Assembly: GCA_013388925.1 (NCBI GenBank)
Contig: JACAEJ010000015.1
Coordinates: 1 to 50,430 of the forward strand
Source: Nitrososphaerales archaeon
GTDB lineage: Archaea; Thermoproteota; Nitrososphaeria; Nitrososphaerales; JACAEJ01
DNA: 50,430 nucleotides
Direction: 5' to 3'
Shown: one piece after another, positions 3,067-30,591 of the stretch
Numbering within the stretch: the stretch's first letter is position 1
How the letters are laid out: every line of letters begins with the position of its first letter
Translations under genes and position numbers: made by a program
Notes under the pieces: generated by a model
Seen by the model: the letters and a program-made list of their open reading frames with translations, nothing else
Told to the model about the DNA's origin: nothing
Database searches by the model: none

Positions 3067-3804
3067 CTAAGTGTTCGTTTGTTTGATGGTCTCGTATAAC
3101 CTAAAGATCGCACTGGCAAATTTCGTTTCTAGGAGCCTTTTGGGCTTGCCTATGGCTTTTTCGACATCTGCATCGAAGGGTATCCTGGCCAGTAGCTTCA
3201 CGTTCAATCTCTCCACTTTCTCTCCAAAGATCAAACCTCCTCTTACCATGTTCTCTACTACGCCAAGTACAGATGCTCCTGAGCCATTCAAGAGAGTTAT
3301 GAGCCTGAAGGCCATGTTGATAACAAGCTTTGAGGGTGTATATACCACTAGGTACTCAGCCTTTCCCACAAACCTCCTAAGGTCTAGAAGCTCTTCCTTG
3401 AGGCTTGGGGGCATGTCTATTACGAGGAAGTCTAACCCTCCCCAATGCGTATTAGCCATTATCTCCAAGACTATGTTGGATACATCGAACCCCCTAAGCT
3501 CCAAAGGACTGCCCTTTGTAAAAGGTTCTATCGACATGAACTTCACTCCAGAAGTCTCTAGGGGAATGAGGCCCTTATCCTCAACAATTCTAATTTCGTC
3601 CAAGCCATAAACTATGTGACAAGACGAGCCCGTGAAGTCGAAGTCTAGAAGCCCCACACTCAAACCTTCCTTTGCCATAGTCAAGGCAAGAACTGAAGAT
3701 ACAAGGGTCTTTCCCACTCCGCCCTTACCACTAACCACTGCTATGACTCTCCTAACAGAGTTGAGCCTCTTGTCGATGATGGACAGTCTAGCGTCGATAG
3801 ACAT
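3067..3804 (-). CDS. Mrp/MinD-family P-loop ATPase, probable archaeal-type HypB (nickel insertion)
   Basis: VVSGKGGVGKTLVSS deviant Walker A; immediately downstream of hypA (3-nt gap). Confidence 0.75.
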   Translation of the reverse strand: MSIDARLSIIDKRLNSVRRVIAVVSGKGGVGKTLVSSVLALTMAKEGLSVGLLDFDFTGSSCHIVYGLDEIRIVEDKGLIPLETSGVKFMSIEPFTKGSPLELRGFDVSNIVLEIMANTHWGGLDFLVIDMPPSLKEELLDLRRFVGKAEYLVVYTPSKLVINMAFRLITLLNGSGASVLGVVENMVRGGLIFGEKVERLNVKLLARIPFDADVEKAIGKPKRLLETKFASAIFRLYETIKQTNT

Positions 3805-3807
3805 CCT

Positions 3808-4233
3808 TTACTCTCCTTTGGGTTTTGAAGCTCTTATGCGGCTTATCCACACCTCCCTTCCCGAAACTATCTTGAAATCCCTAGACTGGCATCGGGGGCA
3901 CTTTAGGTAGACATGAGCTGTCTCGGGGATGAAGTGGATACTTTCAGCCTCCTCGGGCATCAACCTTTTGAGGGCATCCTTCAAAGACCATCTATTATGG
4001 CAGGATAGGCACTCTAACCTTGCTTTCTCCATTTTGATCCTGAACTTTACGCCTTCTTTAAAGGCTGTCTTTGATAGTTCTCTTAGAGCGTTAAGGAACA
4101 ACTGCCTATCTATCTGTCGAAGCTCGCCTAGAGTTACGAAGACCTCTAGGCTCGAGAAATCCTTTAGTTCGCGCTTGGCCCTTTCTTCTCTGGCGGCTTC
4201 TATTACTGCTTCTGCCAGAGCCCACTCATGCAT
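3808..4233 (-). CDS. hypA: Hydrogenase nickel incorporation protein HypA
   Basis: N-terminal MHEWALAEAV and two CxxC zinc motifs (CLSCHNRW...CPRCQSRDF). Confidence 0.92.
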   Translation of the reverse strand: MHEWALAEAVIEAAREERAKRELKDFSSLEVFVTLGELRQIDRQLFLNALRELSKTAFKEGVKFRIKMEKARLECLSCHNRWSLKDALKRLMPEEAESIHFIPETAHVYLKCPRCQSRDFKIVSGREVWISRIRASKPKGE

Positions 4234-4289: not shown

Positions 4290-5372
4290 CTACCTATCTC
4301 TCTTCCCCTCTATAAAATCCATGAAGGCCATCTTGGCTTCGTCGAAGGGCATCTGAACTGGGGGGTGCTTAAAACAGTAGGCCGATAAGCTGACCAAGGG
4401 CCCCTTAATACCCCTAGTCATGGCTACCTTCGTGCCTCTGATGGCGTCTATCATCACCCCAGCGCTGTTGGGAGCGTCTATGACGCTCAACTTCACATCC
4501 ATGGTAACGGGGGCATTGCCAAAGTACCTACCTCTAGTCCATATATAGCATATTTTCTCATTCTGCAAGAATCCGACGAAGTCGCTAGGCCCAATTCTGG
4601 TTGGTACTTGGTAAGGAACCATGGCTCTGACCGCACTTGTCTTGCTCTCTCTCTTGTCCTCCAAGCGCCCCTCTTCCTGCATGTTGAGGAAGTCCGTGTC
4701 CCCTCCTATGTTCAACTGATACGTTTCATCGATCTTTACGCCTCTGTCCACCAGCAACTTTATCAAGGTCTTGTGAAGCACCGTCGCTCCTATCTGACTC
4801 ATTACATCGTCTCCTGCTACCGGCAGTCCAGCCTCAGCAAATTTGGACTGCCAAATAGGATTCGATGCTATGAAGACTGGCATGGCGTTTATAAAAGCCA
4901 CACCAGCCTTTAAGGCCTGCTCCGCATAAAAGCTTGTGGCCTCTAAACTGCCTACCGGAACGTAATTTACAACTATCTCAGTACCACTATCCACTATTAC
5001 AGATGAAACATTTACTGGATCTTTATCAGAGACCCTTATGACATCGGTCATGTACTTGCCTACACCATCCATTACAGGCCCTCTCTCAACTCTAACACCG
5101 AGCCTAGGGACATCCGATATTCTAATGGTGTTGTTAGGCTTCTCGTATATGGCGTCGCTCAAATCTTTGCCCACTTTGTTTTCGTCCACATCAAAGGCAG
5201 CCACGAACTCTATGTCGTGGGGTTTTAATCCGCCCAGACTGTACCTAGTCAGGCCTATAGCCTCGTCTTGATTGAAACTCTTGTAGTAGTAGACACCTTG
5301 CACCAGAGCTGAAGCACAGTTTCCCACACCTATGATAGCCACTTTGGCTTTCATGTCGACCCATATCTCCAT
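4290..5372 (-). CDS. myo-inositol-1-phosphate synthase (archaeal type)
   Basis: KVAIIGVGNCASALVQGVYYYK Rossmann start, NIGGDTDFLNM, VGFLQNEKICYIWTRGRYFG; true start may be the internal ATG at about 5354. Confidence 0.88.
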   Translation of the reverse strand: MEIWVDMKAKVAIIGVGNCASALVQGVYYYKSFNQDEAIGLTRYSLGGLKPHDIEFVAAFDVDENKVGKDLSDAIYEKPNNTIRISDVPRLGVRVERGPVMDGVGKYMTDVIRVSDKDPVNVSSVIVDSGTEIVVNYVPVGSLEATSFYAEQALKAGVAFINAMPVFIASNPIWQSKFAEAGLPVAGDDVMSQIGATVLHKTLIKLLVDRGVKIDETYQLNIGGDTDFLNMQEEGRLEDKRESKTSAVRAMVPYQVPTRIGPSDFVGFLQNEKICYIWTRGRYFGNAPVTMDVKLSVIDAPNSAGVMIDAIRGTKVAMTRGIKGPLVSLSAYCFKHPPVQMPFDEAKMAFMDFIEGKRDR

Positions 5373-5450
5373 GCACGGATCATAATAACCTTTACTTACA
5401 AAACGGCTGTGGAATGAGGCTAAATCTTGCCTTCACGGGATGACCAATGC

Positions 5451-6353
5451 CTACTGAATGGATGTAAGGAAAGATGCGACCAAGAATCCAACGCCTAGTA
5501 AGGCTTGGGTAGCAAGTACTACTATAACGTTCGCACCAAGTGCCGGTACAATTCTTAGATCCGAGTAATTCTTTAAGGAACCATTGATAGCCTTGATGGC
5601 TATGGGGGCCGTCATCAGGCTAAGTAAGGCGGGCAGTGGTATTAACCCCATCCCAATCCATGCAACTATCCAGCAATATACGGCTATGGTTAGGATCGAA
5701 TAGACTTTGGAGGCTCTTTCTTTACCTAGCACCATTACAAGATTCTTTCTTCCACCCTTCTTGTCAGGCTCTACATCAGGGAATTCGTTCAGGAAAAGGA
5801 GATTATGAGTTAATATGAGTGGGGGGATCGAGGCAACTATCACGAGGAGAGTATAGCCTCCAGATTGAACAAAGTAGGCTCCAAGGACGGGCAAGGCTCC
5901 CATCCCTAGACCAGCAAAGAGCTCTCCAACCATGTACTTAGCGAAGTGGGTTGTATAGAAGTAGACCGATATAGCACCTATCACGATTATCGGAAGCAAG
6001 AGCAATCCTCTGACAATCGTGAAGAATGCACCTATCAAAAGCCCTGACAACAGACAGACCACTCCGAATTTGTATACCGACGAGGGTTTAAGAAGACCTG
6101 CTGGAAGAATTCCACTCCCTCCACTGAAAGGAGTCCTCTTCGTCTCCATGTCTATCCCCGACTTAAAGTCAAAGTAGTCATTCAATATATTGACGCTTAT
6201 GTGTAACAAGAGCAAGCCAACCAAGGCCAAGAAGAAGTAGGTTAGATTGAAGTAACCCTCGTAAACAGCTACAGATGTTCCTAAAAACACCAAGACAATA
6301 GAGAGCAGAAGGAACTGGGGCCTTGTTTCTAAGAACCACACCCTTAAACTCAT
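5451..6353 (-). CDS. UbiA/MenA-family prenyltransferase
   Basis: NILNDYFDFKSGID and NEFPDVEPDKKGGRKNLVMVLG Asp-rich motifs; multiple TM segments. Confidence 0.85.
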   Translation of the reverse strand: MSLRVWFLETRPQFLLLSIVLVFLGTSVAVYEGYFNLTYFFLALVGLLLLHISVNILNDYFDFKSGIDMETKRTPFSGGSGILPAGLLKPSSVYKFGVVCLLSGLLIGAFFTIVRGLLLLPIIVIGAISVYFYTTHFAKYMVGELFAGLGMGALPVLGAYFVQSGGYTLLVIVASIPPLILTHNLLFLNEFPDVEPDKKGGRKNLVMVLGKERASKVYSILTIAVYCWIVAWIGMGLIPLPALLSLMTAPIAIKAINGSLKNYSDLRIVPALGANVIVVLATQALLGVGFLVASFLTSIQ

Positions 6354-6492
6354 CTTTGGTTTCTCCTACTTCTACACAAGTTCTCTCCTTAAGAAACTTT
6401 CGGCAGAACGAATACCACCAAACATGATTTCCTTCTACGACTTTACATGACCCTTTGCACTCTTATGGAGCTGGTTAACTTAAATAAGTCTC

Positions 6493-7032
6493 TTGAGAAT
6501 ATTGTTCCATAGCGACCTCTCATTGGGAACAAAGAATTTAATGAAGACATTAGCAGAGGAATTGCGAGCCTTCAAAAGGCTGGTAGTACTTGGCATAGGA
6601 AACGAGCTCAGAGGGGATGATATAGTTGGAGTCTTGGTCGCTGAAAGGCTTAAAAAAGTTCTGAAGGACGTGAGAGACGTCCTCGTCATCAATTGTGGGA
6701 CAACCCCAGAAAACTTCCTATCGAAGGTAAAAACCTTCGACCCCTCACACGTGCTAGTCATAGACGCAGTAGACTTCAAGGGCGAGCCAGGTTCTATAGT
6801 ATTGTTCAGGGCTGAGGACAATGTGATAGATTCTATTTCGACACACAGGCTTCCAATATCCCTGATAAAGGCCTACTTCGAAGGCCTTGGTTTGAACATA
6901 AAGTTCTTCGTAATGGGAGTCCAGCCCATGAGCATTCTCTTAGGAACAAAGATAGCTCCTAGAGTTGAGGAAGCCGTTATAATGGCGACTAAGATGCTTG
7001 AAAAGGTGGTCAAAGGGTCTGCTCATCAGTAA
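6493..7032 (+). CDS. [NiFe]-hydrogenase maturation protease (HycI family)
   Basis: VVLGIGNELRGDDIVGVLVAERL, VINCGTTPENF, STHRLPISLI; start may be ATG 6541 rather than TTG 6493. Confidence 0.88.
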   Translation: MRILFHSDLSLGTKNLMKTLAEELRAFKRLVVLGIGNELRGDDIVGVLVAERLKKVLKDVRDVLVINCGTTPENFLSKVKTFDPSHVLVIDAVDFKGEPGSIVLFRAEDNVIDSISTHRLPISLIKAYFEGLGLNIKFFVMGVQPMSILLGTKIAPRVEEAVIMATKMLEKVVKGSAHQ

Positions 7033-7119
7033 CCCTTACTATGCTCTTTGAGAGATCGGGTTTGGCAAAAAAACACGCGGCTAAAAAAATATAAATTGCC
7101 TAGAAATGAAATATATTAT

Positions 7120-7147
7120 ATTTAAACTCGATTAGTAAAGTTTAAAT
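7120..7147. promoter_or_regulatory. 28-bp inverted repeat (9-10-9) in the promoter region of the hydrogenase operon
   Basis: ATTTAAACT-N10-AGTTTAAAT, perfect 9-bp arms, ending 8 bp before the first ATG (7156). Confidence 0.5.
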
Positions 7148-7155
7148 TTTTAATA

Positions 7156-7515
7156 ATGAATCTTATACTAATGTCCTCGACAAGCGTTTTAAGCACGCCG
7201 GTAATCGTTTTTGGCATAGCGCTGATCGCCTCCTCAATAATCTACCGTATAGGCGACAGGATCGCCCCCAAGTCTCAGGGTACGAAAGAGAAGTATGAAC
7301 CTTATGCTTGTGGTCAAGAGCTTCCGGCTGAGAAGTTCTCAGTTTTGATAGGCTTGTTTAATTACGCAACGGTCTTTATGGTCGTCGATGTAGTAGCCTT
7401 TGTGTTGATACTGTCTATGGGTTTCCCATTTGTAAGACCGATTAGAGAAATCTTCCTCTTATATTGTGCAATTCTTTTTGCATCCCTGTCGATTCTTTTG
7501 AGGAGACGAGAATGA
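7156..7515 (+). CDS. Complex I NuoA/FpoA-like membrane subunit
   Basis: KYEPYACGQELPAEKF and FNYATVFMVVDVVAFVL; three TM segments. Confidence 0.88.
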   Translation: MNLILMSSTSVLSTPVIVFGIALIASSIIYRIGDRIAPKSQGTKEKYEPYACGQELPAEKFSVLIGLFNYATVFMVVDVVAFVLILSMGFPFVRPIREIFLLYCAILFASLSILLRRRE

Positions 7516-7937
7516 TGAATCTAGTTAAGTGGGCGAGGTTAAGAAGTCCTTGGCTACTCCACTTCAATACGGGGGCGTGCAATGCATGTGATATCGAAGT
7601 TCTGGCCGCTCTGACCCCTAGGTATGATCTCGAGAGGTTTGGTGTCTTATTGAAGGGGAGCCCTAGGCATGCAGACGTGCTCGTGGTAACAGGGCCTGTC
7701 ACAAGGCAGGTCAGAGATAGGCTTTTGAGGGTCTACAATCAGATGCCAGATCCCAAGTTTGTCGTAGCGGTTGGGACTTGTTGCATAAGCGGAGGGGTTT
7801 TCAATGGTTGCTACAACGTCTATTCTGGGTTGGATTCCGTCATACCCGTGGATGCGTACATCTTCGGTTGTCCACCAAAGCCAGAGGCCATCATAAACGG
7901 CGTTGCGGCTCTTTTGAAGAAACTGGAGGAGTCCTAG
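7512..7937 (+). CDS. [NiFe]-hydrogenase group 4 small subunit / NuoB-like
   Basis: FNTGACNACDIEVLAALTPRYD, VGTCCISGGVF, GCPPKPEAII; ATGA overlap with the upstream gene puts the start at 7512 rather than ORF-track 7464. Confidence 0.9.
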   Translation: MMNLVKWARLRSPWLLHFNTGACNACDIEVLAALTPRYDLERFGVLLKGSPRHADVLVVTGPVTRQVRDRLLRVYNQMPDPKFVVAVGTCCISGGVFNGCYNVYSGLDSVIPVDAYIFGCPPKPEAIINGVAALLKKLEES

Positions 7938-7938
7938 A

Positions 7939-8463
7939 ATGAACGAAAACAACGTCTCTGAAGCCTTAAAGAACAAGTTTGGAGAGAAGATATCGAAGAT
8001 CATGATTCCAAAGAAGGGCGGAGAGGAAGCAAAAGATGTGATAATCCCTGAAATAATGGAGATCAAGGTTTCGAAGAGAAGGGTTTTCGTAACGGTTCCT
8101 GTTGAAGTCTACAAGGAGGTTATTCGCTATTTGGTCGAGGACCTCGGGTTCAATCATGTCCAAGCAATTACGGGGCTAGATACTGGTAAGTTTATAGAGG
8201 TTATGCCCCACCTTGGACGCGGGATAACGGTTACCGTTAGAACAAGGATTGAGAGAGATAAACCTATGTTGAGCACGATAACAGATATAGTACCAGGCGC
8301 TTCTCCCCATGAAAGGGAGCTTCATGACCTTCTAGGAGTAGTCTTCGAAGGTCATCCGAACCTGACGAGGATAACCTTACCTGAGGGCTGGCCTGAGAAT
8401 GTGTACCCGTTGAGGAAGGAGTATACTCCAGAGCAACCCAAGCCACTAAGAGAGGTGTCCTGA
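7939..8463 (+). CDS. NuoC/EchD-like hydrogenase subunit
   Basis: ITDIVPGASPHERELHDLLGVVFEGHPNLTRITLPEGWPENVYPLRKEY, a 30-kDa subunit signature. Confidence 0.9.
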   Translation: MNENNVSEALKNKFGEKISKIMIPKKGGEEAKDVIIPEIMEIKVSKRRVFVTVPVEVYKEVIRYLVEDLGFNHVQAITGLDTGKFIEVMPHLGRGITVTVRTRIERDKPMLSTITDIVPGASPHERELHDLLGVVFEGHPNLTRITLPEGWPENVYPLRKEYTPEQPKPLREVS

Positions 8464-9680
8464 TGCAAAAGGAGGAGTTTCAAAGGACTGAGAAGAAATC
8501 TGCATATGAACTATTCTTTGACATGCCTGTTGGACCGCAGCACCCTGCTTTGAAGGAGCCCGCCTTCTTCAAGTTCAAGGTGGAAGGGGAGAGGGTCATA
8601 GGCGTCGATGCCGACGTATCGTATAATCATAGGGGCATAGAGAAGGCCTTAGAGTACAGGAACTATATACAAAATATCTACCTTATAGAAAGGATCTGTG
8701 GCATATGCAATGTCGCTCATACTCTCTGCTACGCCCAAGCAGTGGAGCAACTCCATGGAAAAGAAATACCCCCCAGGGCGAATTACATAAGGCTCATGAT
8801 AGAGGAGTTGGCAAGGATTCACAGCCACGCACTGTGGCTCGGAGTCGCTGCCCACGAGATAGGCTTCGACACCCTCTTTATGTATGTCTGGAGGGACAGA
8901 GAAGTCGTCATGGATATCATCGAAATGCTTACTGGGAACAGAGTTACCACTGCCATAAACACCATAGGAGGGGTCAGGAGGGACGTAAGCGATGAAGCCA
9001 AGTACAAGGTCAAGAAGGGTATGGACATCCTTGAAGAGCGACTAAAGTACTATAGGAATGTTGCCTTGAACGATCCTACTGTAAACGCTAGGTGTAGTGA
9101 CGTAGGCATACTAAAGCCAAGAGATGCGATAAGGCTCTGCGCTGTTGGCCCCACTCTAAGGGCTTCTGGTGTTAAAAACGATGTTAGGCTGGACGATCCT
9201 TATACGCTCCATGATGAAGTCCCATTCAATATCGTAACCTGCGATACCATGGACGTCTTAGGGAGGGTTGTGGTCAGGGTCGATGAGATGCTAGAATCTG
9301 TGAACATGGTCAGGTACTGTCTGGAACACATGCCAAATGGGGATGTAAAGATAAAGTTATCATTATCTCCACCAGTGGGTGAAGCTATAAGTAGGGTCGA
9401 GGCTCCTAGGGGGGAGTTGATCCATTATGCAAGGTCCAATGGAACGAAGAATCCTGAGCGATACAAGGTCAGAACGCCGACCTTTGGGAACATACCTGCT
9501 GTATGTGACATGTTGACTTCAAAGGGCGACTACGAGGTCAACATAGCCGATATACCCATAACCTTGGCTTCTATAGATCCTTGCTTTAGCTGCACCGCTA
9601 GGATGGAGTTTAGAGACGTATCCAAGAGCAAGACTTGGGTTTGGAGCCTGGAGGAGCTAAAAGCTCACTGTAAGAAGTAG
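8463..9680 (+). CDS. [NiFe]-hydrogenase group 4 large (catalytic) subunit / NuoD-like
   Basis: MPVGPQHPALKEP; N-terminal ERICGICNVAHTLCY and C-terminal DPCFSCTARMEF: both CxxC nickel-ligand motifs intact. Confidence 0.93.
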   Translation: MQKEEFQRTEKKSAYELFFDMPVGPQHPALKEPAFFKFKVEGERVIGVDADVSYNHRGIEKALEYRNYIQNIYLIERICGICNVAHTLCYAQAVEQLHGKEIPPRANYIRLMIEELARIHSHALWLGVAAHEIGFDTLFMYVWRDREVVMDIIEMLTGNRVTTAINTIGGVRRDVSDEAKYKVKKGMDILEERLKYYRNVALNDPTVNARCSDVGILKPRDAIRLCAVGPTLRASGVKNDVRLDDPYTLHDEVPFNIVTCDTMDVLGRVVVRVDEMLESVNMVRYCLEHMPNGDVKIKLSLSPPVGEAISRVEAPRGELIHYARSNGTKNPERYKVRTPTFGNIPAVCDMLTSKGDYEVNIADIPITLASIDPCFSCTARMEFRDVSKSKTWVWSLEELKAHCKK

Positions 9681-9691
9681 GAGCTAGGCAC

Positions 9692-10660
9692 ATGGAATGG
9701 CTTTTGGAATTACTTCAGATCCTTATTTTTCCTGGCATAGTATTTGCCATAGTACTGGCCTTTGTCTATGAATGGTTCGATAGGAAAATCTACGCCAAGC
9801 TACAGAACAGGGTTGGGCCTCTCTACACAGGAAAAAGCGGAATTCTACAGCCCTTTGCCGATTTCGTAAAGCTTCTTGCAAAGGAGGACATAACTCCTGG
9901 TGAAGTAGATAAACCCCTCTTCAACGCCCTGCCAATAGTTGCGTTAACCCTCTCCTTGATGGGTTTCTTGGCACTGCCGATAACAGGATTGAGAGGTATT
10001 ATCTCATTCAACGGCGATTTGATCTTTTTAATCGCTCTGATGACCCTGATATGTATAGTTATAATTTACTCGGGTATATCCTCCTCGAATAGGTTTTCCA
10101 CAGTGGGGGCTGAAAGGGCCGCCCTTCAACTTCTAGGTTACGAAATACCTATGATGCTATCTGCGATAAGCATCGGGATATTGGCCGGCTCCATGTGGGT
10201 TTATGACATAGTCAATACCCAAGTAAGTGGCATCTGGTTCTTGGTGGGTCCCAGTATTCTTGGGTTTGCCATCTTCGTTCTATGTGGCCAAGCCGAGTTG
10301 GAGCGAATACCATTTGATATACCAGAAGCCGAGACCGAGATCGTTGCTGGCTGGTTAACGGAGTTTTCAGGGAAAAAACTCGCTTTGTTCAGGCTGACCA
10401 AGGACGTTGAACTCTTGTACCTGTCTGGATTGGCCGTTGCTCTTTTCCTCGGCGGCCCCTCCGGTCCTGTCATATCCGGTCTGGAACCTATATTATACCC
10501 TATTTACTTCTTACTGAAGACCTTGTTTGTGCTCTTCCTACTTACAACCCTCCGCGCCCTTTTTGCTAGGCTCAGAATCGACCAGATGGTCAATTTCTCT
10601 TGGAAGTACCTTGTCCCTCTTGCAATATTACAGGTTTTACTCGTTAGGGTGATCGTATAA
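9692..10660 (+). CDS. NuoH/FpoH-like membrane subunit
   Basis: AKLQNRVGPLYTGKSGILQPFADFVKLLAKED, ERIPFDIPEAETEIVAGWLTEFSG, RIDQMVNFSWKYLVPLA. Confidence 0.93.
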   Translation: MEWLLELLQILIFPGIVFAIVLAFVYEWFDRKIYAKLQNRVGPLYTGKSGILQPFADFVKLLAKEDITPGEVDKPLFNALPIVALTLSLMGFLALPITGLRGIISFNGDLIFLIALMTLICIVIIYSGISSSNRFSTVGAERAALQLLGYEIPMMLSAISIGILAGSMWVYDIVNTQVSGIWFLVGPSILGFAIFVLCGQAELERIPFDIPEAETEIVAGWLTEFSGKKLALFRLTKDVELLYLSGLAVALFLGGPSGPVISGLEPILYPIYFLLKTLFVLFLLTTLRALFARLRIDQMVNFSWKYLVPLAILQVLLVRVIV

Positions 10661-10661
10661 A

Positions 10662-11000
10662 ATGTCCATGCTGAAAGAAATTCAAAGAAGCCTCTTCAAG
10701 AAGAGGGCTACCGTTCTCTATCCTTTCAAGGAAAGGGAGAGAGTTCACATACCTGATGGTCTTAGGGGCAAGATAAGCTTCGATAGGGACAAGTGCACGG
10801 GTTGCCTTTTATGTTCTAGGTTTTGCCCGAGCGGGGCTTGCGAAATCGTTACGGATGAGAAGGGCAAAAGGCCCGTATTCCACTTGGAGCTCTGCTTGTT
10901 CTGTTCCCAATGCCAAGAAGTCTGTCCCAAAGGTGCCATCAATTTGACGGAAGAGTTCGAGTTGGCAGCCTTTGACAGAAAGGCTTTCACTATAAAGTGA
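10662..11000 (+). CDS. NuoI/EchF-like 2x[4Fe-4S] ferredoxin subunit
   Basis: CTGCLLCSRFCPSGAC and CLFCSQCQEVCPKGAIN. Confidence 0.92.
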   Translation: MSMLKEIQRSLFKKRATVLYPFKERERVHIPDGLRGKISFDRDKCTGCLLCSRFCPSGACEIVTDEKGKRPVFHLELCLFCSQCQEVCPKGAINLTEEFELAAFDRKAFTIK

Positions 11001-11536
11001 TCTTCATGGTCGACTATCTGATACACATGACCTTTCTAGCCCTCCTAATAGTCTTGGCTTTTCTTGTCATAGAGATCAAGGATCTGCTTAGGGCTCTGGC
11101 CATTTTCATAATTATGAGCTCTGTTCTAAGTGTGATCTTCTACATTTTGAGCGCGCCCTTTATAGCAGTCTTCCAACTAGCCATATACGCAGGGGCCATA
11201 GCCGTTCTATTCCTCGCCACTCTTCACACTACAAAGGGGAGGGTCTTGAGTGAAAAGTTGAACTTGACCATCGGTCTTCTTTTGGTGGGCATGCTTCTTG
11301 TAATGGTCTTGGTCTTCTCCGTAAACCTCATCGACGCCTTTAGGGTGGTCACACCTCCACAAGGCTACCCCCTCGAGGAAGCCCCCTTCTTCCTATGGAC
11401 CTATAGGGGCTTTGACATAATCGTCCAAGGCTTTCTCCTCTTGGCTACAGTTACGGCTGTGACAGCGATCTTGAGGAAGAAGGAGGGTGTTGGAGTCATC
11501 GAGGAGGCTGTAGAGGAGAGTGTTAAGAATGAATGA
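10997..11536 (+). CDS. NuoJ/FpoJ-like membrane subunit
   Basis: FQLAIYAGAIAVLFLATLHTT NuoJ-type motif; five hydrophobic segments; 3' overlap with the next gene. Confidence 0.85.
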   Translation: MIFMVDYLIHMTFLALLIVLAFLVIEIKDLLRALAIFIIMSSVLSVIFYILSAPFIAVFQLAIYAGAIAVLFLATLHTTKGRVLSEKLNLTIGLLLVGMLLVMVLVFSVNLIDAFRVVTPPQGYPLEEAPFFLWTYRGFDIIVQGFLLLATVTAVTAILRKKEGVGVIEEAVEESVKNE

Positions 11537-11840
11537 ATTACTTCAACTCTACATACCCGCATCCATCCTCTTGATAGCTATGGGGATCTACTGCATGGCC
11601 GCCAAGAGAGACCTGATAAAGATCGTACTAGGGATAGAAATAATGACCTCAGGCGTCAACCTTAACCTGATAGTAATGGGCTTGGGAAGCAATGGTGTTG
11701 ACGCCCTAGCCCAGTCCATGGCCCTGATTTCCATGACCATAGGAGCCTGCGTTGCTGCCGTTGCCTTATCGATAATCATAAACACCTTTAGGCACTATGG
11801 AACTACCGATGTCAGGAAGCTCAGAAGACTTAGATGGTAA
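11520..11840 (+). CDS. NuoK/FpoK-like membrane subunit
   Basis: LIKIVLGIEIMTSGVNLNLIVMG and AQSMALISMTIGACVAAVALSIII. Confidence 0.88.
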   Translation: MLRMNELLQLYIPASILLIAMGIYCMAAKRDLIKIVLGIEIMTSGVNLNLIVMGLGSNGVDALAQSMALISMTIGACVAAVALSIIINTFRHYGTTDVRKLRRLRW

Positions 11841-11844
11841 TCTG

Positions 11845-12399
11845 TCAGAATAGTGTTTGGAACTTTTCACTCATCCCGAAGTACTCTCTCTCAATCTTGG
11901 TAATCTCCTCCGGGCTCTTGGCAATTCTATAATCCTCGAGGGGATTCTCGTTTAGAACTAGGAAGTTGGGTCCCCATTTAAAGAAGGACATAAGCCTTCT
12001 GCTCTCATTGACATGGTCTGCAATGTAGAGCGTAGCTGCGAGGGCTTCCGCCGAACTCAGCATGGAAATCTTGCCATAGTTTATAGGGTTGGCAGCCAAC
12101 AGTAGAGGGAGCCTTCTGTTCAATCCTCCAAATCCTCTTGCGAAGGTTTCGTCTATCCTCTTCCAAGAGCAGTCTATAACTACAAGGCCATAGCTCAAAC
12201 GAGGCTTGTCTTCAGGTGAAAACACATTCGATGCCTTTGGATTTAGGGTTATACCCCTTCTAGGAATTGCTCTCTTTTGAAAGATGGGCTGGACCAAGCC
12301 CAGACGGCAGAGCTTTGCTGCGGCGCACTTCCTTCTATCATCCTGCCTCATCAGGTAGGCGTAGAGTCTCAGTTTTTGAGTTAGAGAGGCTTGGCTCAA
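11845..12399 (-). CDS. tsr3: Tsr3/DUF367-family rRNA aminocarboxypropyltransferase
   Basis: DDRRKCAAAKLCRLGL, LVVIDCSWKR, RRLPLLLAANPINYGK, SSAEALAATLYI. Confidence 0.9.
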   Translation of the reverse strand: MSQASLTQKLRLYAYLMRQDDRRKCAAAKLCRLGLVQPIFQKRAIPRRGITLNPKASNVFSPEDKPRLSYGLVVIDCSWKRIDETFARGFGGLNRRLPLLLAANPINYGKISMLSSAEALAATLYIADHVNESRRLMSFFKWGPNFLVLNENPLEDYRIAKSPEEITKIEREYFGMSEKFQTLF

Positions 12400-12565
12400 T
12401 CTATCTTAAAAGGTAAAGTTCGGGGTTAAAATGCTTGCTATCCACGCTCAAAAAGGCGTTTATTATGCCCTCTGTCTATCAATTTCTCAAGAGATGTGTA
12501 AAAGGGATGGCCCAATAATAACGTTTAATAATAAATCCGTCAAATAGAGCATAGGTTAGAAGTAC

Positions 12566-12802
12566 ATGCCAATGGCATTTGTTTTGATAAATGCAGAGCT
12601 TGGAGCAGAGGAAGAGTTGATAAAAGAGCTAAAGAAGATCGACAATGTGAGAGAGGTTTACGTAGTCTACGGTGTCTATGACATCATAGCGAAGATAGAA
12701 GCGAATTCTATGGAGAAGGTAAAGGAGACAGTAACGTGGAAGATAAGGCGCCTGGATAAAGTTCGATCTACACTAACAATGATCGTCGTAGAGGCTTCAT
12801 AA
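12566..12802 (+). CDS. Stand-alone Lrp/AsnC ligand-binding (RAM) domain protein
   Basis: AFVLINAELGAEEELIKELKKIDNVREVYVVYGVYDIIAKIEA, no HTH. Confidence 0.88.
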   Translation: MPMAFVLINAELGAEEELIKELKKIDNVREVYVVYGVYDIIAKIEANSMEKVKETVTWKIRRLDKVRSTLTMIVVEAS

Positions 12803-12922
12803 TATACTACATCAAGGGGCCCTTATCAAGTGAAGAACATAAAGATTCTGCTACTAGTTTCCCCCACTTTTTTTTGAAGACAATTAATAGAAGGATGATG
12901 ATTGATAATGATGGTTTTCACA

Positions 12923-13050
12923 CCAATGAGACGGAGGTTCGTCTATGGTCGTTCCCACTTAAATTGATGCCACAAATTGTTCGGTTGTTAAGGTCAGAAG
13001 AATCTATCAAGTCGGAACAATTTTGAGTGGCATCATGATCGCTCGTGGGA
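12923..13050. other. Structured intergenic element (putative ncRNA or inverted-repeat element)
   Basis: 12965-12982 TGATGCCACAAATTGTTC pairs with 13015-13035 GAACAATTTtgaGTGGCATCA (18 bp, one 3-nt bulge); outer TCCCAC/GTGGGA (12953-12958/13045-13050); preceding hairpin AGACG-GAGGTT-CGTCT (12929-12944). Confidence 0.5.
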
Positions 13051-13132
13051 TGTTTCTTTTTCTTGTCATGAAGTAATTAGCGACCAAATAAGATTTTAAA
13101 CATACTCTTCGAATCTCTCTTAGACGGTTTGA

Positions 13133-14428
13133 TTGGGCAAGCTTCAGGTACTTCACATAGGCCTAGATGATACGGACTCCAAGGACGGGATGTGCACAAC
13201 TTACGTTGGTGCTGTAGTCGTAGATAGACTTATTGATATTGGTGCAAAAATCATCGACTATCCCCATCTCATCAGGCTTAACCCAAATTGGATCCTGAAG
13301 ACTAGAGGGAATTGTGCCATTGCCATTAAAGTTGAAGCTAAAGACGAGCTCATACCCAGCATAAAAAAGATGGTCTTAAAGACTGTAGAGCAACTAGCAG
13401 AGCTTGATCATGAAACGACAAATCCGGGCGTGGTCTTCTTAAAGGGTGAGAATATACCTGAAGAATTAGGGGCTTTTTCAAGAAAGGTAATTCAAGATAT
13501 AGTGACCATAGACGAAGCAGAAGAATTAGCGAAGAGGATAGGGGCTGAATTCTTCAAATTTAAGATAGGAAGAGGGATCATAGGAGCTTTAGCAGCCATT
13601 GGTGAAGAATTAGAGCAAGATTTTACTTATGAATTGATAGCCTACAGACTACCTAGTAACAGGGGTAAAGAGAGGAAGATCGATAGAGAGTCTGTATTTA
13701 AAATGAATGAGTTGACCTATCCTGATACCTTTGATAACATCGACCTTAATACTGGCGAGATAAGGATAACTCCCCATACTCCTTGTCCAATCCTTTATGG
13801 AATTAGAGCTGAGAGCTCTTGGATAGCTGAGAAAGCTCACGGTATGGTGAAAGCCTTTGAGCCCATAGAGAGATGGGTCATCTATAAGGCAAATCAGGCT
13901 ACAGATGAGCATATAAAAAGCTCAAAGATATCTGAGGTGAAACCATATCGTTCTTTTGTAGTTGAGGGAGAAGTCTGTGATAAGCCAAGAATTATAGTTG
14001 GGGGGCATGTAATATTCACAATAAAGGATGATGGTGACAAGATAGACTGTGCTGCCTATGAGCCTACAAGAAAGTTCAGGGAGGTGATTATGAAGCTAGC
14101 TATTGGGGATATAGTCAAAGTCTATGGAGGGATAAAGCCAAAGCCAAATTTACCATTAACTATAAACCTTGAGAAGATAGAAGTGGTTAAGCTCAGCCCG
14201 ATATTCAAGAAGTTAAACCCTATCTGTCCTTTATGCAGAAGAAGGATGAAGTCAGCAGGTAAAGAAAAGGGCTTTGTGTGCAAAAATTGTAAGCAGAAGC
14301 TCCCAAGGGAAACAGTAATAATCGGAGAGATGCCAAGAAGTATAACAGTGGGGATTTACGAAGTCCCGCCCAGAGCTAGGAGGCACTTGGCAAAGCCTTT
14401 GGTTCGCCTTTCACCTAGGATCTGGTAG
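13133..14428 (+). CDS. tiaS: tRNA(Ile2) 2-agmatinylcytidine synthetase TiaS
   Basis: HIGLDDTDSKDGMCTTYVG, HTPCPILYGIRAES, C-terminal zinc ribbon CPLCRRRMK...CKNCKQ. Confidence 0.93.
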   Translation: MGKLQVLHIGLDDTDSKDGMCTTYVGAVVVDRLIDIGAKIIDYPHLIRLNPNWILKTRGNCAIAIKVEAKDELIPSIKKMVLKTVEQLAELDHETTNPGVVFLKGENIPEELGAFSRKVIQDIVTIDEAEELAKRIGAEFFKFKIGRGIIGALAAIGEELEQDFTYELIAYRLPSNRGKERKIDRESVFKMNELTYPDTFDNIDLNTGEIRITPHTPCPILYGIRAESSWIAEKAHGMVKAFEPIERWVIYKANQATDEHIKSSKISEVKPYRSFVVEGEVCDKPRIIVGGHVIFTIKDDGDKIDCAAYEPTRKFREVIMKLAIGDIVKVYGGIKPKPNLPLTINLEKIEVVKLSPIFKKLNPICPLCRRRMKSAGKEKGFVCKNCKQKLPRETVIIGEMPRSITVGIYEVPPRARRHLAKPLVRLSPRIW

Positions 14429-14445
14429 GAAGGGAATCGATCGCA

Positions 14446-15492
14446 ATGAAGGCTCGTAACGTCATCAAAGCCAACCAACTCTTCATACTCTTGCCCTTGG
14501 CAACTTTCATTGCGCTAGTCATTGCCGTCCATTCTTCTATCCTTGACATTTATGATAAAATGTTGCTTTACATGATAAACGGCGCTTCTGGATCAGAAGC
14601 TCTAGACATCCTAATGCTTACACTGACGGAGGTAGGTGGGGGCTTCTTTTGGTTCATGGTCATAGTAGTTTTATGGGTGTATGGCAGGACTGAAGAGAGG
14701 AACTTCGCCATTTTCTTGGCTATAACCTTTGTAGTATCGGGACTCTCCGGGCTTGTAGCAAAGACCCTCTTCTACCGACCAAGGCCCTACGAAGTTCTGT
14801 CAGGAGTAGACTTGGTTGGATCCGGGGAATATGGCTCTTCGTTCCCTTCGGCCCACTCGGCAAGGGCCTTTGCTGGTAGTACTCTGATCTTCAGAATTTA
14901 TGGAAAATTGGCCTACCCTTTATTGGTTTTGTCTTTTGCAGTCGCTCTCTCAAGGGTTTACATGTGCGTCCATTATCCTACAGACGCAGTGGCAGGGGCC
15001 TTCTTAGGTCTAGCCATTGCTAACTTCGTATACATACTTACAAAAAAGCCATCAGCACTTATGGACAGAGTCCGCAATGTCTGGGTGGATTTCTCTAACA
15101 ACCCTTGGAAAAGGATGGTCTTTCCTACGCTCTTCTGCATCGTACTGTCAATAATATCTGTAAGCATTATTCTGGTCAAAGAGCCAAACCTTCTCAATAA
15201 CCCTCAGGACATAATCTCAAGTCTACCTATCATCGTAGATCCAAGAAACATGTTTGATTATGGGATAACCTTCACTTGGCCCATGTCGGCTTTGTCTATT
15301 CTGGTTTACCCCCTTCTGTCTTTATTTATGCTATTCATGAGCACTTTCTTCTTAGTATCTGCAAAGAGGATGAAGAATCACAGTCTATTCGATTTCGCTT
15401 TGAAGACAGGCACCTTCTTTTTTGTAATATGCCTCACATTAATCGCCACTGCCTTTATCATCTTGGTCTATATCCTTTTGATAAGCATTTGA
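14446..15492 (+). CDS. PAP2-family membrane phosphatase
   Basis: KTLFYRPRPYE, SSFPSAHSARAFAG, RVYMCVHYPTDAVAGAFLG. Confidence 0.88.
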   Translation: MKARNVIKANQLFILLPLATFIALVIAVHSSILDIYDKMLLYMINGASGSEALDILMLTLTEVGGGFFWFMVIVVLWVYGRTEERNFAIFLAITFVVSGLSGLVAKTLFYRPRPYEVLSGVDLVGSGEYGSSFPSAHSARAFAGSTLIFRIYGKLAYPLLVLSFAVALSRVYMCVHYPTDAVAGAFLGLAIANFVYILTKKPSALMDRVRNVWVDFSNNPWKRMVFPTLFCIVLSIISVSIILVKEPNLLNNPQDIISSLPIIVDPRNMFDYGITFTWPMSALSILVYPLLSLFMLFMSTFFLVSAKRMKNHSLFDFALKTGTFFFVICLTLIATAFIILVYILLISI

Positions 15493-28095: not shown

Positions 28096-29349
28096 GTGAA
28101 CGAAGAGGCCAATCGAATGGCTGTGATAGACCTGAGGCAGAGTATAATCGATCTCTACAAGAACAATAGACTCGATCCAGACCTTGGAGAAATATTGCAA
28201 AAGAGCCTCGAAGGGAAAGAAATAACCAAAAAAGAGGCCTATCGTCTGATAAGGTGTAATTATAGGAATCTTGGTGTGTTGATGTCTGTAGCCAGCATCG
28301 TTCGGAATATGAGTAAAGGCAGGCGCATAACATACTCGAGAAAGGTGTTCATTCCCCTGACAAATATGTGCAGGAATAGGTGTGGCTATTGCGACTTCAG
28401 AAGAGAGCCCAACGATCCTGGTGCTGAGGTTATGAGCCCTAGCAAAATCCTATCAATAGCAGAAGCCGGCAAAAGGGCATACTGCACAGAAGCCCTCTTT
28501 ACCCTTGGAGAAAAGCCCGAGGAAAGGTATTCTGAAGCCAAAGAAGAGCTCAAGCAAATGGGTTACAATGGCACATTGGACTATCTCAGGGACGCCTGTG
28601 AGATGGTGATAAAGAAGACAGAGCTTCTACCCCACTCCAACGCAGGTATCATGACGAAGGATGAATTGGCCGATCTAAAGGAAGTGAACGCTAGCATGGG
28701 TCTGATGCTCGAGAATGTTAGCGATAGGCTCTGTAACAAGGGAGGGCCTCACGAATTATCTTTGGGCAAGAGGCCCAAGCTAAGACTTGCCACTATCGAG
28801 AGTGCCGGTCAGCTCAGGATACCATTCACTACTGGCTTACTGATAGGCATAGGGGAGCTCCCCGAAGAGATCGTCGACTCTCTTTACGCCATAAAAGCGC
28901 TTGATAAGAATTACGGCCATATCCAGGAGGTCATAATTCAGAACTTCAGAGCCAAGCCCAGCACTCCTATGGCTCGTCATAAAGAGCCCAGTGTAAGGGA
29001 GATAGCCAAAGTCATCGCTGTAGCAAGGCTCGTCTTCAAGGATGGGATGAACGTACAGGTACCGCCAAACCTCAGCCCCAACGAATATGACTTCTATCTA
29101 TCGGCAGGGATAAACGACTGGGGAGGGGTATCTCCCGTTACGAAGGACTTCGTGAACCCTGAAGCGCCTTGGCCAGAAATAAAGACCCTCAAATTTGTAA
29201 CCGAAAAGAGAGGATTTGAGCTAAAGGCGAGGTTGCCCGTCTATCCCGAGTTCATACTGAACAAACCCGATCTCTTGCCAGAGTCCCTTAAGAGTTATAT
29301 AACTCCCCTTGTTGATAGTGAGGGCTTTGTCAAAGGAGGAATCTTTTAG
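28096..29349 (+). CDS. cofG: FO synthase subunit 1 (CofG)
   Basis: FIPLTNMCRNRCGYCDFRREP radical SAM motif; adjacent to cofH. Confidence 0.93.
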   Translation: MNEEANRMAVIDLRQSIIDLYKNNRLDPDLGEILQKSLEGKEITKKEAYRLIRCNYRNLGVLMSVASIVRNMSKGRRITYSRKVFIPLTNMCRNRCGYCDFRREPNDPGAEVMSPSKILSIAEAGKRAYCTEALFTLGEKPEERYSEAKEELKQMGYNGTLDYLRDACEMVIKKTELLPHSNAGIMTKDELADLKEVNASMGLMLENVSDRLCNKGGPHELSLGKRPKLRLATIESAGQLRIPFTTGLLIGIGELPEEIVDSLYAIKALDKNYGHIQEVIIQNFRAKPSTPMARHKEPSVREIAKVIAVARLVFKDGMNVQVPPNLSPNEYDFYLSAGINDWGGVSPVTKDFVNPEAPWPEIKTLKFVTEKRGFELKARLPVYPEFILNKPDLLPESLKSYITPLVDSEGFVKGGIF

Positions 29350-30591
29350 TTGAATCTTATTGTGCCCAGACCGGATAATGATAGACTTCGTTCTTCTTTT
29401 GAAGGCTTGTTCCAAATTATAGATCCCGTAATAGCCTCGATTCTCAACAAGGCGATGGACGGCAAAGATGTGTCGTTGAAGGAAGGCTTTGAGCTCTTCG
29501 AAGCAAGGGGTATGGATATGACGGCCTTGGCCATGGTGGCCGATGAGTTGAGGAGAAGGACTGTAGGGAGCATTGTCACCTATGTCGTGAATCGCAACAT
29601 CAACTTCACGAACATATGCATAAAGAGGTGTGGTTTTTGTGCCTTCAGTAGAGGGCATAGGGACGAGGAGGGCTACTTTCTACCGATAGAAGAAGTGGTC
29701 AGAAAGACAAGAGAAGCATGGGAGTTGGGGGCGACAGAAGTCTGCATTCAGGCTGGCATAGCTCCACATATGGATGGCCATCTCTATATAGACATCTGCA
29801 GAGCCATAAAGAAGGAGTTACCCGACATTCATATCCATGCCTTCTCCCCCGAAGAGATAGTTTATGGGGCTCTAAGGTCCAAGACGACCGTGGAGGACTA
29901 CTTAAGGATGCTAAAGGAGGCTGGAATCGGTAGCCTTCCTGGCACATCGGCAGAGATCTTGGATGATGAAATAAGAAGAATCATATCCCCAGGAAGGATA
30001 AAGACCAAGGACTGGATATACGTCATCAAGACGGCTCATAGGCTCGGTATTCCGACAACCTCGACGATAATGTATGGGCATGTAGAGAATTCGTGGCACA
30101 AGGCAAAGCACATAGCCATAGTAAGAGACATACAGAAGGAAACTCACGGGATAACAGAGTTCGTCCCGCTGAGCTTTGTCCACTACGAAGCTCCCATGTA
30201 CAACAAAGGCTTGGTCAAAGGCATCAGGCCTGGTGCAACGGGGGCGGAGGTAGTAAAGATGCACGCGGTGTCCAGAATTATGTTGAACAATCACATAAAG
30301 AACATACAGGTATCCTGGGTCAAGGAAGGGACAAAGCTTGCGCAACTCTGCCTGAATGTTGGTGCCAACGACTTTAGTGGTACGCTGATAGACGAGAACA
30401 TATCGAAGGCTGCTGGTGCAACTCACGGTCAGCTATTGCGCCCGAGGGATTTCAGGAGGCTCATTAGAGATATTGGCAGAACTCCTGCCCAGAGGTCTAC
30501 CACCTACGATATACTGAAGGTCTTCTGTGATAAAGAGGGCGATGACGTGCCCGATAAGTTCGACGAGAGATTGGTTTCCATAAGAGTTTGA
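29350..30591 (+). CDS. cofH: FO synthase subunit 2 (CofH)
   Basis: NRNINFTNICIKRCGFCAFSRG; CIQAGIAPHMDGHLYIDICRAIKKELPDIHIHAFSPEEI. Confidence 0.93.
   Translation: MNLIVPRPDNDRLRSSFEGLFQIIDPVIASILNKAMDGKDVSLKEGFELFEARGMDMTALAMVADELRRRTVGSIVTYVVNRNINFTNICIKRCGFCAFSRGHRDEEGYFLPIEEVVRKTREAWELGATEVCIQAGIAPHMDGHLYIDICRAIKKELPDIHIHAFSPEEIVYGALRSKTTVEDYLRMLKEAGIGSLPGTSAEILDDEIRRIISPGRIKTKDWIYVIKTAHRLGIPTTSTIMYGHVENSWHKAKHIAIVRDIQKETHGITEFVPLSFVHYEAPMYNKGLVKGIRPGATGAEVVKMHAVSRIMLNNHIKNIQVSWVKEGTKLAQLCLNVGANDFSGTLIDENISKAAGATHGQLLRPRDFRRLIRDIGRTPAQRSTTYDILKVFCDKEGDDVPDKFDERLVSIRV

Follow-up and report, generated by a model that had tools for sequence, protein, structure and literature searches.

How can a hydrogenase that is built like complex I work when no gene for an antiporter-like subunit accompanies it? 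This question is raised by positions 7156 to 11840 of contig JACAEJ010000015.1 from a Nitrososphaerales archaeon (assembly GCA_013388925.1); the whole analysed stretch of 50,430 nucleotides is called the window below. Eight tightly packed genes on the forward strand follow the order of complex I, A-B-C-D-H-I-J-K (letters as in Nuo), and none of the antiporter-like genes L, M or N lies within the operon. We classify its product, by catalytic subunit and descent as read from the sequences, as a predicted complex I-like group 4 [NiFe] hydrogenase of variant composition. The original prediction had read the locus as a hydrogenase unlike NuoD/FpoD, and the nickel motifs, the trees and the ranking of solved structures all agree with it.

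The catalytic large subunit D carries RICGICNVAH and DPCFSCTAR with the four nickel-ligating cysteines, which are kept in all four genomes that carry the operon. In the Protein Data Bank (PDB) its closest solved chain is the alpha subunit of the Pyrococcus furiosus membrane-bound hydrogenase (MBH; 6cfw_L, E 6e-86) and the next is HycE of formate hydrogenlyase, both ahead of all complex I 49-kDa subunits. The phylogeny of the large subunit against NuoD/FpoD, as originally proposed, places D with the hydrogenases (support 100). The 26-residue C-terminal tail of D fits what is expected of a substrate of HycI. Genes for HypA and a MinD-family ATPase lie about 2-3 kb further upstream of the HycI gene on the opposite strand; we regard the pair as maturation genes because the ATPase matches 3vx3 and 5aun, which we take to be the ATPase-type HypB of Thermococcus and, for 5aun, its complex with HypA. 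HypD is encoded elsewhere in the genome and, among seven genomes of the family, was found in 4/4 with the operon and in 0/3 without it, which supports a matured NiFe enzyme. Thus the marks of group 4 are present in the nickel ligands, the hydrogenase-clade large subunit, the tail with HycI and Hyp maturation, the NuoH-type anchor and the ferredoxin-like I subunit; the remaining mark, at least one antiporter-like subunit, is missing from the operon in four genomes. Neither mark of complex I/Fpo was found, that is, a large subunit of the NuoD/FpoD clade free of NiFe ligands, and L/M/N in the locus. As separate observations on maturation, a HypA and ATPase-type HypB pair also adjoins a B-C-D-I hydrogenase at two other loci (L199 and L190), and G037, G045, G054 and G058 have a hydrogenase D with four cysteines and HycI, yet no detectable HypD.

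The arrangement of the operon was confirmed gene by gene. Spacings between genes as called range from -52 to +11 nt, and the true start of B is the ATG at 7512, overlapping the stop of A. Curated models recognise each of B, C, D, H, I, J and K. Subunit A alone scores 20.6 bits, below the Pfam cut-off of 23.3, but a profile of 12 A homologues from equivalent operons matches solved ND3/NuoA chains of complex I (E 2e-8), PF00507 is matched by 10 of the 12 homologues, and none of 8 conserved columns is broken in A. The same eight genes occur in three further genomes with 72-98% identity and the operon always ends at K; the four carriers belong to two genera, and the operon occupies at least two genomic sites with different neighbourhoods. 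The ratio of non-synonymous to synonymous substitution rates (dN/dS) is 0.007-0.18 across the operon genes wherever dS could be estimated. Recurrence and low dN/dS together exclude chance as the source of the arrangement. The boundaries described originally also stand: a HycI-type protease gene directly upstream, as in the three related genomes, and an end at tsr3 (PF04034) on the opposite strand.

Where, then, are N, L and M? The original prediction saw no antiporter-like subunits in the operon, and a genome-wide search confirms that a dedicated set is missing. The window genome, 94% complete and in 89 contigs, has just three Proton_antipo_M genes of full length, every one on contig C76, and each of the four carriers has exactly three full antiporter genes, forming one N-L-M set. 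The original prediction had named L/M/N found elsewhere as part of an ordinary complex as a result that would count against it. A set does exist at a second complex I-like locus, but that complex is not ordinary. On C76, I-H-D-C-B-A lie on one strand and Jn-Jc-K-N-L-M (J split in two) diverge on the other, with two geranylgeranyl-reductase-like flavoprotein genes adjoining; its D lacks nickel ligands, and the layout is the same in G001, G003 and G005. In the concatenated N+L+M tree, the C76-type sets and their counterparts in G419 and G595 lie deep within the hydrogenase N-L-M clade (support 100/100 for the enclosing and 99/99 for the inner node), and a constraint grouping them with other complex I N-L-M was rejected by the approximately unbiased (AU) test (p 3.8e-63). 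B+D+H of the same complexes group with complex I (100/100), and a tree constrained to place them among the hydrogenases was rejected (AU p 2.5e-7); since the tested groups were chosen after earlier trees, both p-values are to be read as strong rather than exact. J+K lie on the hydrogenase side (93). By these placements, the predicted C76 complex is a mosaic of a complex I head and a hydrogenase-type N-L-M pump arm, with J-K probably also of hydrogenase type, and the only N-L-M of the cell is, as far as the trees tell, of hydrogenase descent. The mosaic complex was probably acquired as a unit, because its N-L-M group with their counterparts in G419, G595 and G440/G588. Transfer of the C76 N-L-M from the window hydrogenase itself was considered and is unsupported, since they group with the G419/G595 complexes and the split hydrogenases of G440/G588.

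The history of the hydrogenase suggests how the set came to be missing. Homologous hydrogenases occur in 173 of 398 sampled genomes of the phylum (E < 1e-85), and most of the operons examined read A-B-C-D-H-I-J-K-N-L-M, J often being split in two. NiFe-bearing and Ni-less sequences separate with support of 100 in the D tree and 100/100 in the B+D+H tree, and the window lineage is nested among hydrogenases with the full set. Its sister is lineage f31 (99/99 in B+D+H, 99 in J+K), whose genes form two loci, B-C-D-I with HycI and A-H-Jn-Jc-K-N-L-M; the latter is the sole NuoH-bearing locus in G409 and G430. A first D tree had pointed to f18, of the same class, as sister, which wider sampling replaced by f31. 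Comparable two-locus splits, with the C gene placed at the membrane locus, were found in G440 and G588, and the catalytic and membrane loci paired in this way are L176-L179 with L216, L217, L220 and L221, L183 with L218, and L185 with L219. Separation of catalytic from membrane genes has therefore arisen several times, the gene complement staying complete. In the window lineage A, H, J and K remain beside the catalytic genes and N-L-M are gone. Because of the nesting and the complete sister, this absence is derived, and loss is its simplest account. An origin of J and K from the cell's own complex I was rejected, because in the J+K tree their sister group is the f31 hydrogenase (99). Separately, loci L063-L066, from the HypD-lacking genomes G037, G045, G054 and G058 named above, hold operons of the form HycI-A-B-C-D-H-I-J-K-L-N, and L097-L102 are similar.

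In K, all 15 columns that other lineages conserve are kept; in J, one of 19 such columns is broken (Y to F), and H keeps 83 of 84; N-L-M-bearing lineages break 1-5 columns in K and 0-5 in J. The stem of the window lineage in the J+K tree is 0.54 long, compared with 0.52 in the N-L-M-bearing sister f31, and dN/dS of J and K is about 0.07-0.13. J and K are thus unaccelerated and without sign of a lost partner, their breaks being no more than in most N-L-M-bearing lineages. J is unsplit here, and is Jn+Jc in f31, in many related hydrogenases and in the C76 complex of the same cell.

The operon therefore encodes in full both the catalytic arm, made of B, C, D and I, and the proximal membrane arm, made of A, H, J and K; a dedicated distal antiporter-like part (N, L, M) is absent from the genome. 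We prefer the reading, to which we give about an even chance, that the hydrogenase would use the hydrogenase-type N-L-M of C76 in trans, one pump arm then serving two enzymes; recruitment of L/M/N from elsewhere had been raised in the original prediction as one possibility. Trans supply is preferred because J and K retain their N-docking features, a hydrogenase-type N-L-M is encoded in the same cell and the modules have repeatedly separated elsewhere. The electron donor would be a carrier of low potential, reduced ferredoxin being the likeliest (as suggested by the I subunit and by relatives); electrons would travel via the clusters of I and B, and the NiFe site of D would use them to reduce protons to H2, the reverse reaction being possible. 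As in MBH and complex I, the subunits H, A, J and K would carry the coupling, whether conformational or by charge. The face that normally holds N would still be offered by J and K, and the hydrogenase would there be completed by the C76 N-L-M, which would also serve the Ni-less complex I-like enzyme. Several points weigh against this. The C76 complex comes with a J and a K of its own; the sister genus g3 keeps a C76-type complex without any hydrogenase, so these N-L-M do not need one; the K subunits of the two complexes are 40% identical, and cross-docking is not assured. Constraint on J and K would also be expected if they function without N. As to the donor, three relatives have a FrhB/FpoF-like gene next to the operon, a hint of F420. 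Co-assembly is inferred from sequence.

The competing accounts differ in what they make of the same membrane arm. The strongest, possible although somewhat less probable than borrowing, is that the enzyme stands alone with A, H, J and K and either moves ions through the channel region of H/A/J/K or is a membrane-anchored, uncoupled redox valve. Across two genera and different neighbourhoods, all four operons lack N-L-M, the unsplit J (split in the sister and most related hydrogenases) could fit a rebuilt membrane end, and the Drh hydrogenases of Methanocellales were reported without an antiporter subunit (PMC9723716). Yet J and K retain every feature of an N-bearing lineage, and the structurally known relatives with H, namely formate hydrogenlyase, MBH and complex I, all have at least one antiporter-like subunit (PMC9474812). 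That H, A, J and K alone, driven by the NiFe site, form a working ion pump without any antiporter-like subunit we consider unlikely. Less likely again is that a dedicated N-L-M set exists and is merely missing from the assemblies. All four carriers are drafts (30-90 contigs, 94-96% complete), and G005 has, at a contig end (L230, G005:C25, 1-274), a 91-codon antiporter-like fragment. The absence nevertheless repeats in genomes that are independent of one another, all four having three full antiporter genes and no more. The fragment is at most 40% identical to any sampled N/L/M, breaks off where other sequence begins and is not matched in the remaining carriers; it is a contaminant or a relic. 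Two candidate cases of the same kind, both without PF00361, were discarded on assembly grounds: in G433 the operon starts 314 bases from the contig end, where relatives have a divergent J-K-N, and in G437 the membrane locus is cut by the contig end. A fragment of another group 4-like cluster was also seen (L231, G004:C46, 1-3832), with a ferredoxin-type protein, an 849-amino-acid fused antiporter-like protein and a NuoC-like protein.

The A-K subunit set with an active-type NiFe site resembles a hypothetical ancestor, and the original prediction had offered a hydrogenase/complex I evolutionary intermediate. An intermediate predating the addition of N-L-M is, of all accounts, the least credible, being contradicted by the nesting within full-set hydrogenases and by a sister lineage that holds N-L-M at its second locus. 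The accompanying argument that NuoA is characteristic of complex I/Fpo fails as well, as A is normal in the complex I-like hydrogenases of this phylum. A further reading concerns only the direction of the reaction, so that its probability overlaps with those of the membrane-arm readings: tentatively, the enzyme may mainly oxidise H2 and feed F420 or ferredoxin. A FrhB/FpoF-like gene adjoins the operon in all three genomes of genus g2 and the membrane locus in f31 (Table 1; family assignment checked in L067, L068, L216 and L062), while none lies beside the operon of the window. In g2 it is tail-to-tail with K and hence not co-transcribed; in f31 it is head-to-head with A.

Among known systems, Nuo-like group 4g [NiFe] hydrogenases are described from Korarchaeia and Bathyarchaeia, the Korarchaeia clusters including NuoL/M-like subunits (PMC10667645); HydDB treats 4g as a loose class with function unknown (PMC5037454), and it has been termed polyphyletic (PMC11291895). 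The NiFe large subunit, the Nuo-type neighbours and the predicted ferredoxin-linked H2 evolution are shared, a likeness drawn from literature descriptions only, whereas the window operon has no NuoL/M-like subunits. P. furiosus MBH (group 4d) provides the closest solved large subunit and has H, J/K-like and B/C/D/I homologues; unlike it, the operon lacks Mrp-type subunits and the MbhH antiporter and has a separate complex I-type A and the complex I gene order. Fpo and the 11-subunit archaeal complex I (C76-type, Nuo of ammonia-oxidising archaea) share the A-B-C-D-H-I-J-K order and the subunits up to K, but the window D keeps the NiFe ligands, B/D/H lie outside the complex I clade (100/100) and L/M/N are missing. 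Formate hydrogenlyase of Escherichia coli (group 4a) offers the second-closest large subunit, HycE, and HycI-type processing, but has the antiporter-like HycC and no separate J/K, the reverse of what is seen here. Drh of Methanocellales is likewise related to group 4 and reportedly free of an antiporter subunit, but is linked to HdrB (PMC9723716), whereas no Hdr gene lies in the operon. The Asgard complex I-like group 4 hydrogenase similarly combines a Nuo-like membrane module with a NiFe hydrogenase, but has two antiporter subunits and is related to a different, Asgard clade as reported in PMC11291895.

The enzyme class is already known, whereas its subunit set and its mosaic partner complex appear to be new. 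Our search of the open literature, subscription papers aside, turned up neither a hydrogenase that has A/H/J/K but lacks every antiporter-like subunit nor a mosaic complex of a complex I head and a hydrogenase-type arm. The best-founded surprises are that the lineage lost N-L-M yet fully retained J/K, and that the only pump arm of the cell, derived from hydrogenases, sits in a mosaic complex I. For complex I and group 4 hydrogenases alike, a catalytic core with NuoH and one antiporter-like subunit has been proposed as a universal adaptor (title of Batista 2013, as cited in PMC9474812). The window operon retains everything up to K, without the antiporter-like part of the adaptor. If N-L-M were borrowed, one pump arm would serve two redox heads, and to our knowledge this mode of assembly is known nowhere in the superfamily. 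If they were not, the enzyme would test whether H/A/J/K alone can pump, and such a pump, if real, would be a natural enzyme in which the proposed fourth proton route of complex I stands by itself. The mosaic complex is direct phylogenetic evidence for module exchange, which is usually an assumption in models of how complex I evolved.

Table 1. Positions of the genes of the hydrogenase operon, of its neighbours and of related loci. Coordinates are those of the window unless a locus is named.
Feature	Position	Strand	Remarks
ATPase-type HypB (Mrp/MinD family)	3067..3804	-	adjoins HypA; E 1e-58 to 3vx3/5aun
HypA nickel chaperone	3808..4233	-	above PRK03824 cut-off
HycI-type hydrogenase maturation protease	6493..7032	+	123 nt upstream of operon
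A subunit (NuoA/ND3-like)	7156..7515	+	3 predicted transmembrane segments; weak singly, clear as family profile
B subunit (NuoB/hydrogenase small subunit)	7512..7937	+	curated model; cluster cysteines present
C subunit (NuoC, 30 kDa)	7939..8463	+	curated model
D subunit, [NiFe] catalytic large subunit	8463..9680	+	both CxxC motifs; 26-amino-acid C-terminal tail
H subunit (NuoH/ND1/MbhM-like membrane anchor)	9692..10660	+	curated model
I subunit	10662..11000	+	curated model; two [4Fe-4S] ferredoxin-like motifs
J subunit, unsplit	10997..11536	+	curated model
K subunit (NuoK/MbhG-like), final operon gene	11520..11840	+	curated model
Tsr3 family gene	11845..12399	-	PF04034 match; outside the system, begins 5 nt past K and marks operon end
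FrhB/FpoF-like gene	L067 7245-8408		beside hydrogenase locus
FrhB/FpoF-like gene	L068 13441-14619		beside hydrogenase locus
FrhB/FpoF-like gene	L069 215-1393		beside hydrogenase locus
FrhB/FpoF-like gene	L216 13603-14664		beside hydrogenase locus
FrhB/FpoF-like gene	L062 1011-2087		beside hydrogenase locus
Mosaic complex I	L005 (G000:C76) 4482-14601	both	also in G419 (L137) and G595 (L138)

Some minor observations concern the surroundings. A UbiA prenyltransferase gene (window 5451-6353) lies beside the hydrogenase genes, and a relative of it stands between two geranylgeranyl-reductase-like genes at the complex I locus of G001 and G003 (L045/L046); this pairing suggests a lipid or quinone role. 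Two adjacent radical-SAM genes at 28096-30591 of the window resemble, by eye, CofH/CofG of F420 synthesis. None of the seven family genomes yielded a heme-copper oxidase gene. Two relatives come from isolates labelled JZ2 and DRTY6, labels that match Tengchong hot-spring pools named in PMC11094006, and the carriers, which are related to ammonia oxidisers, may accordingly be of hot-spring origin.

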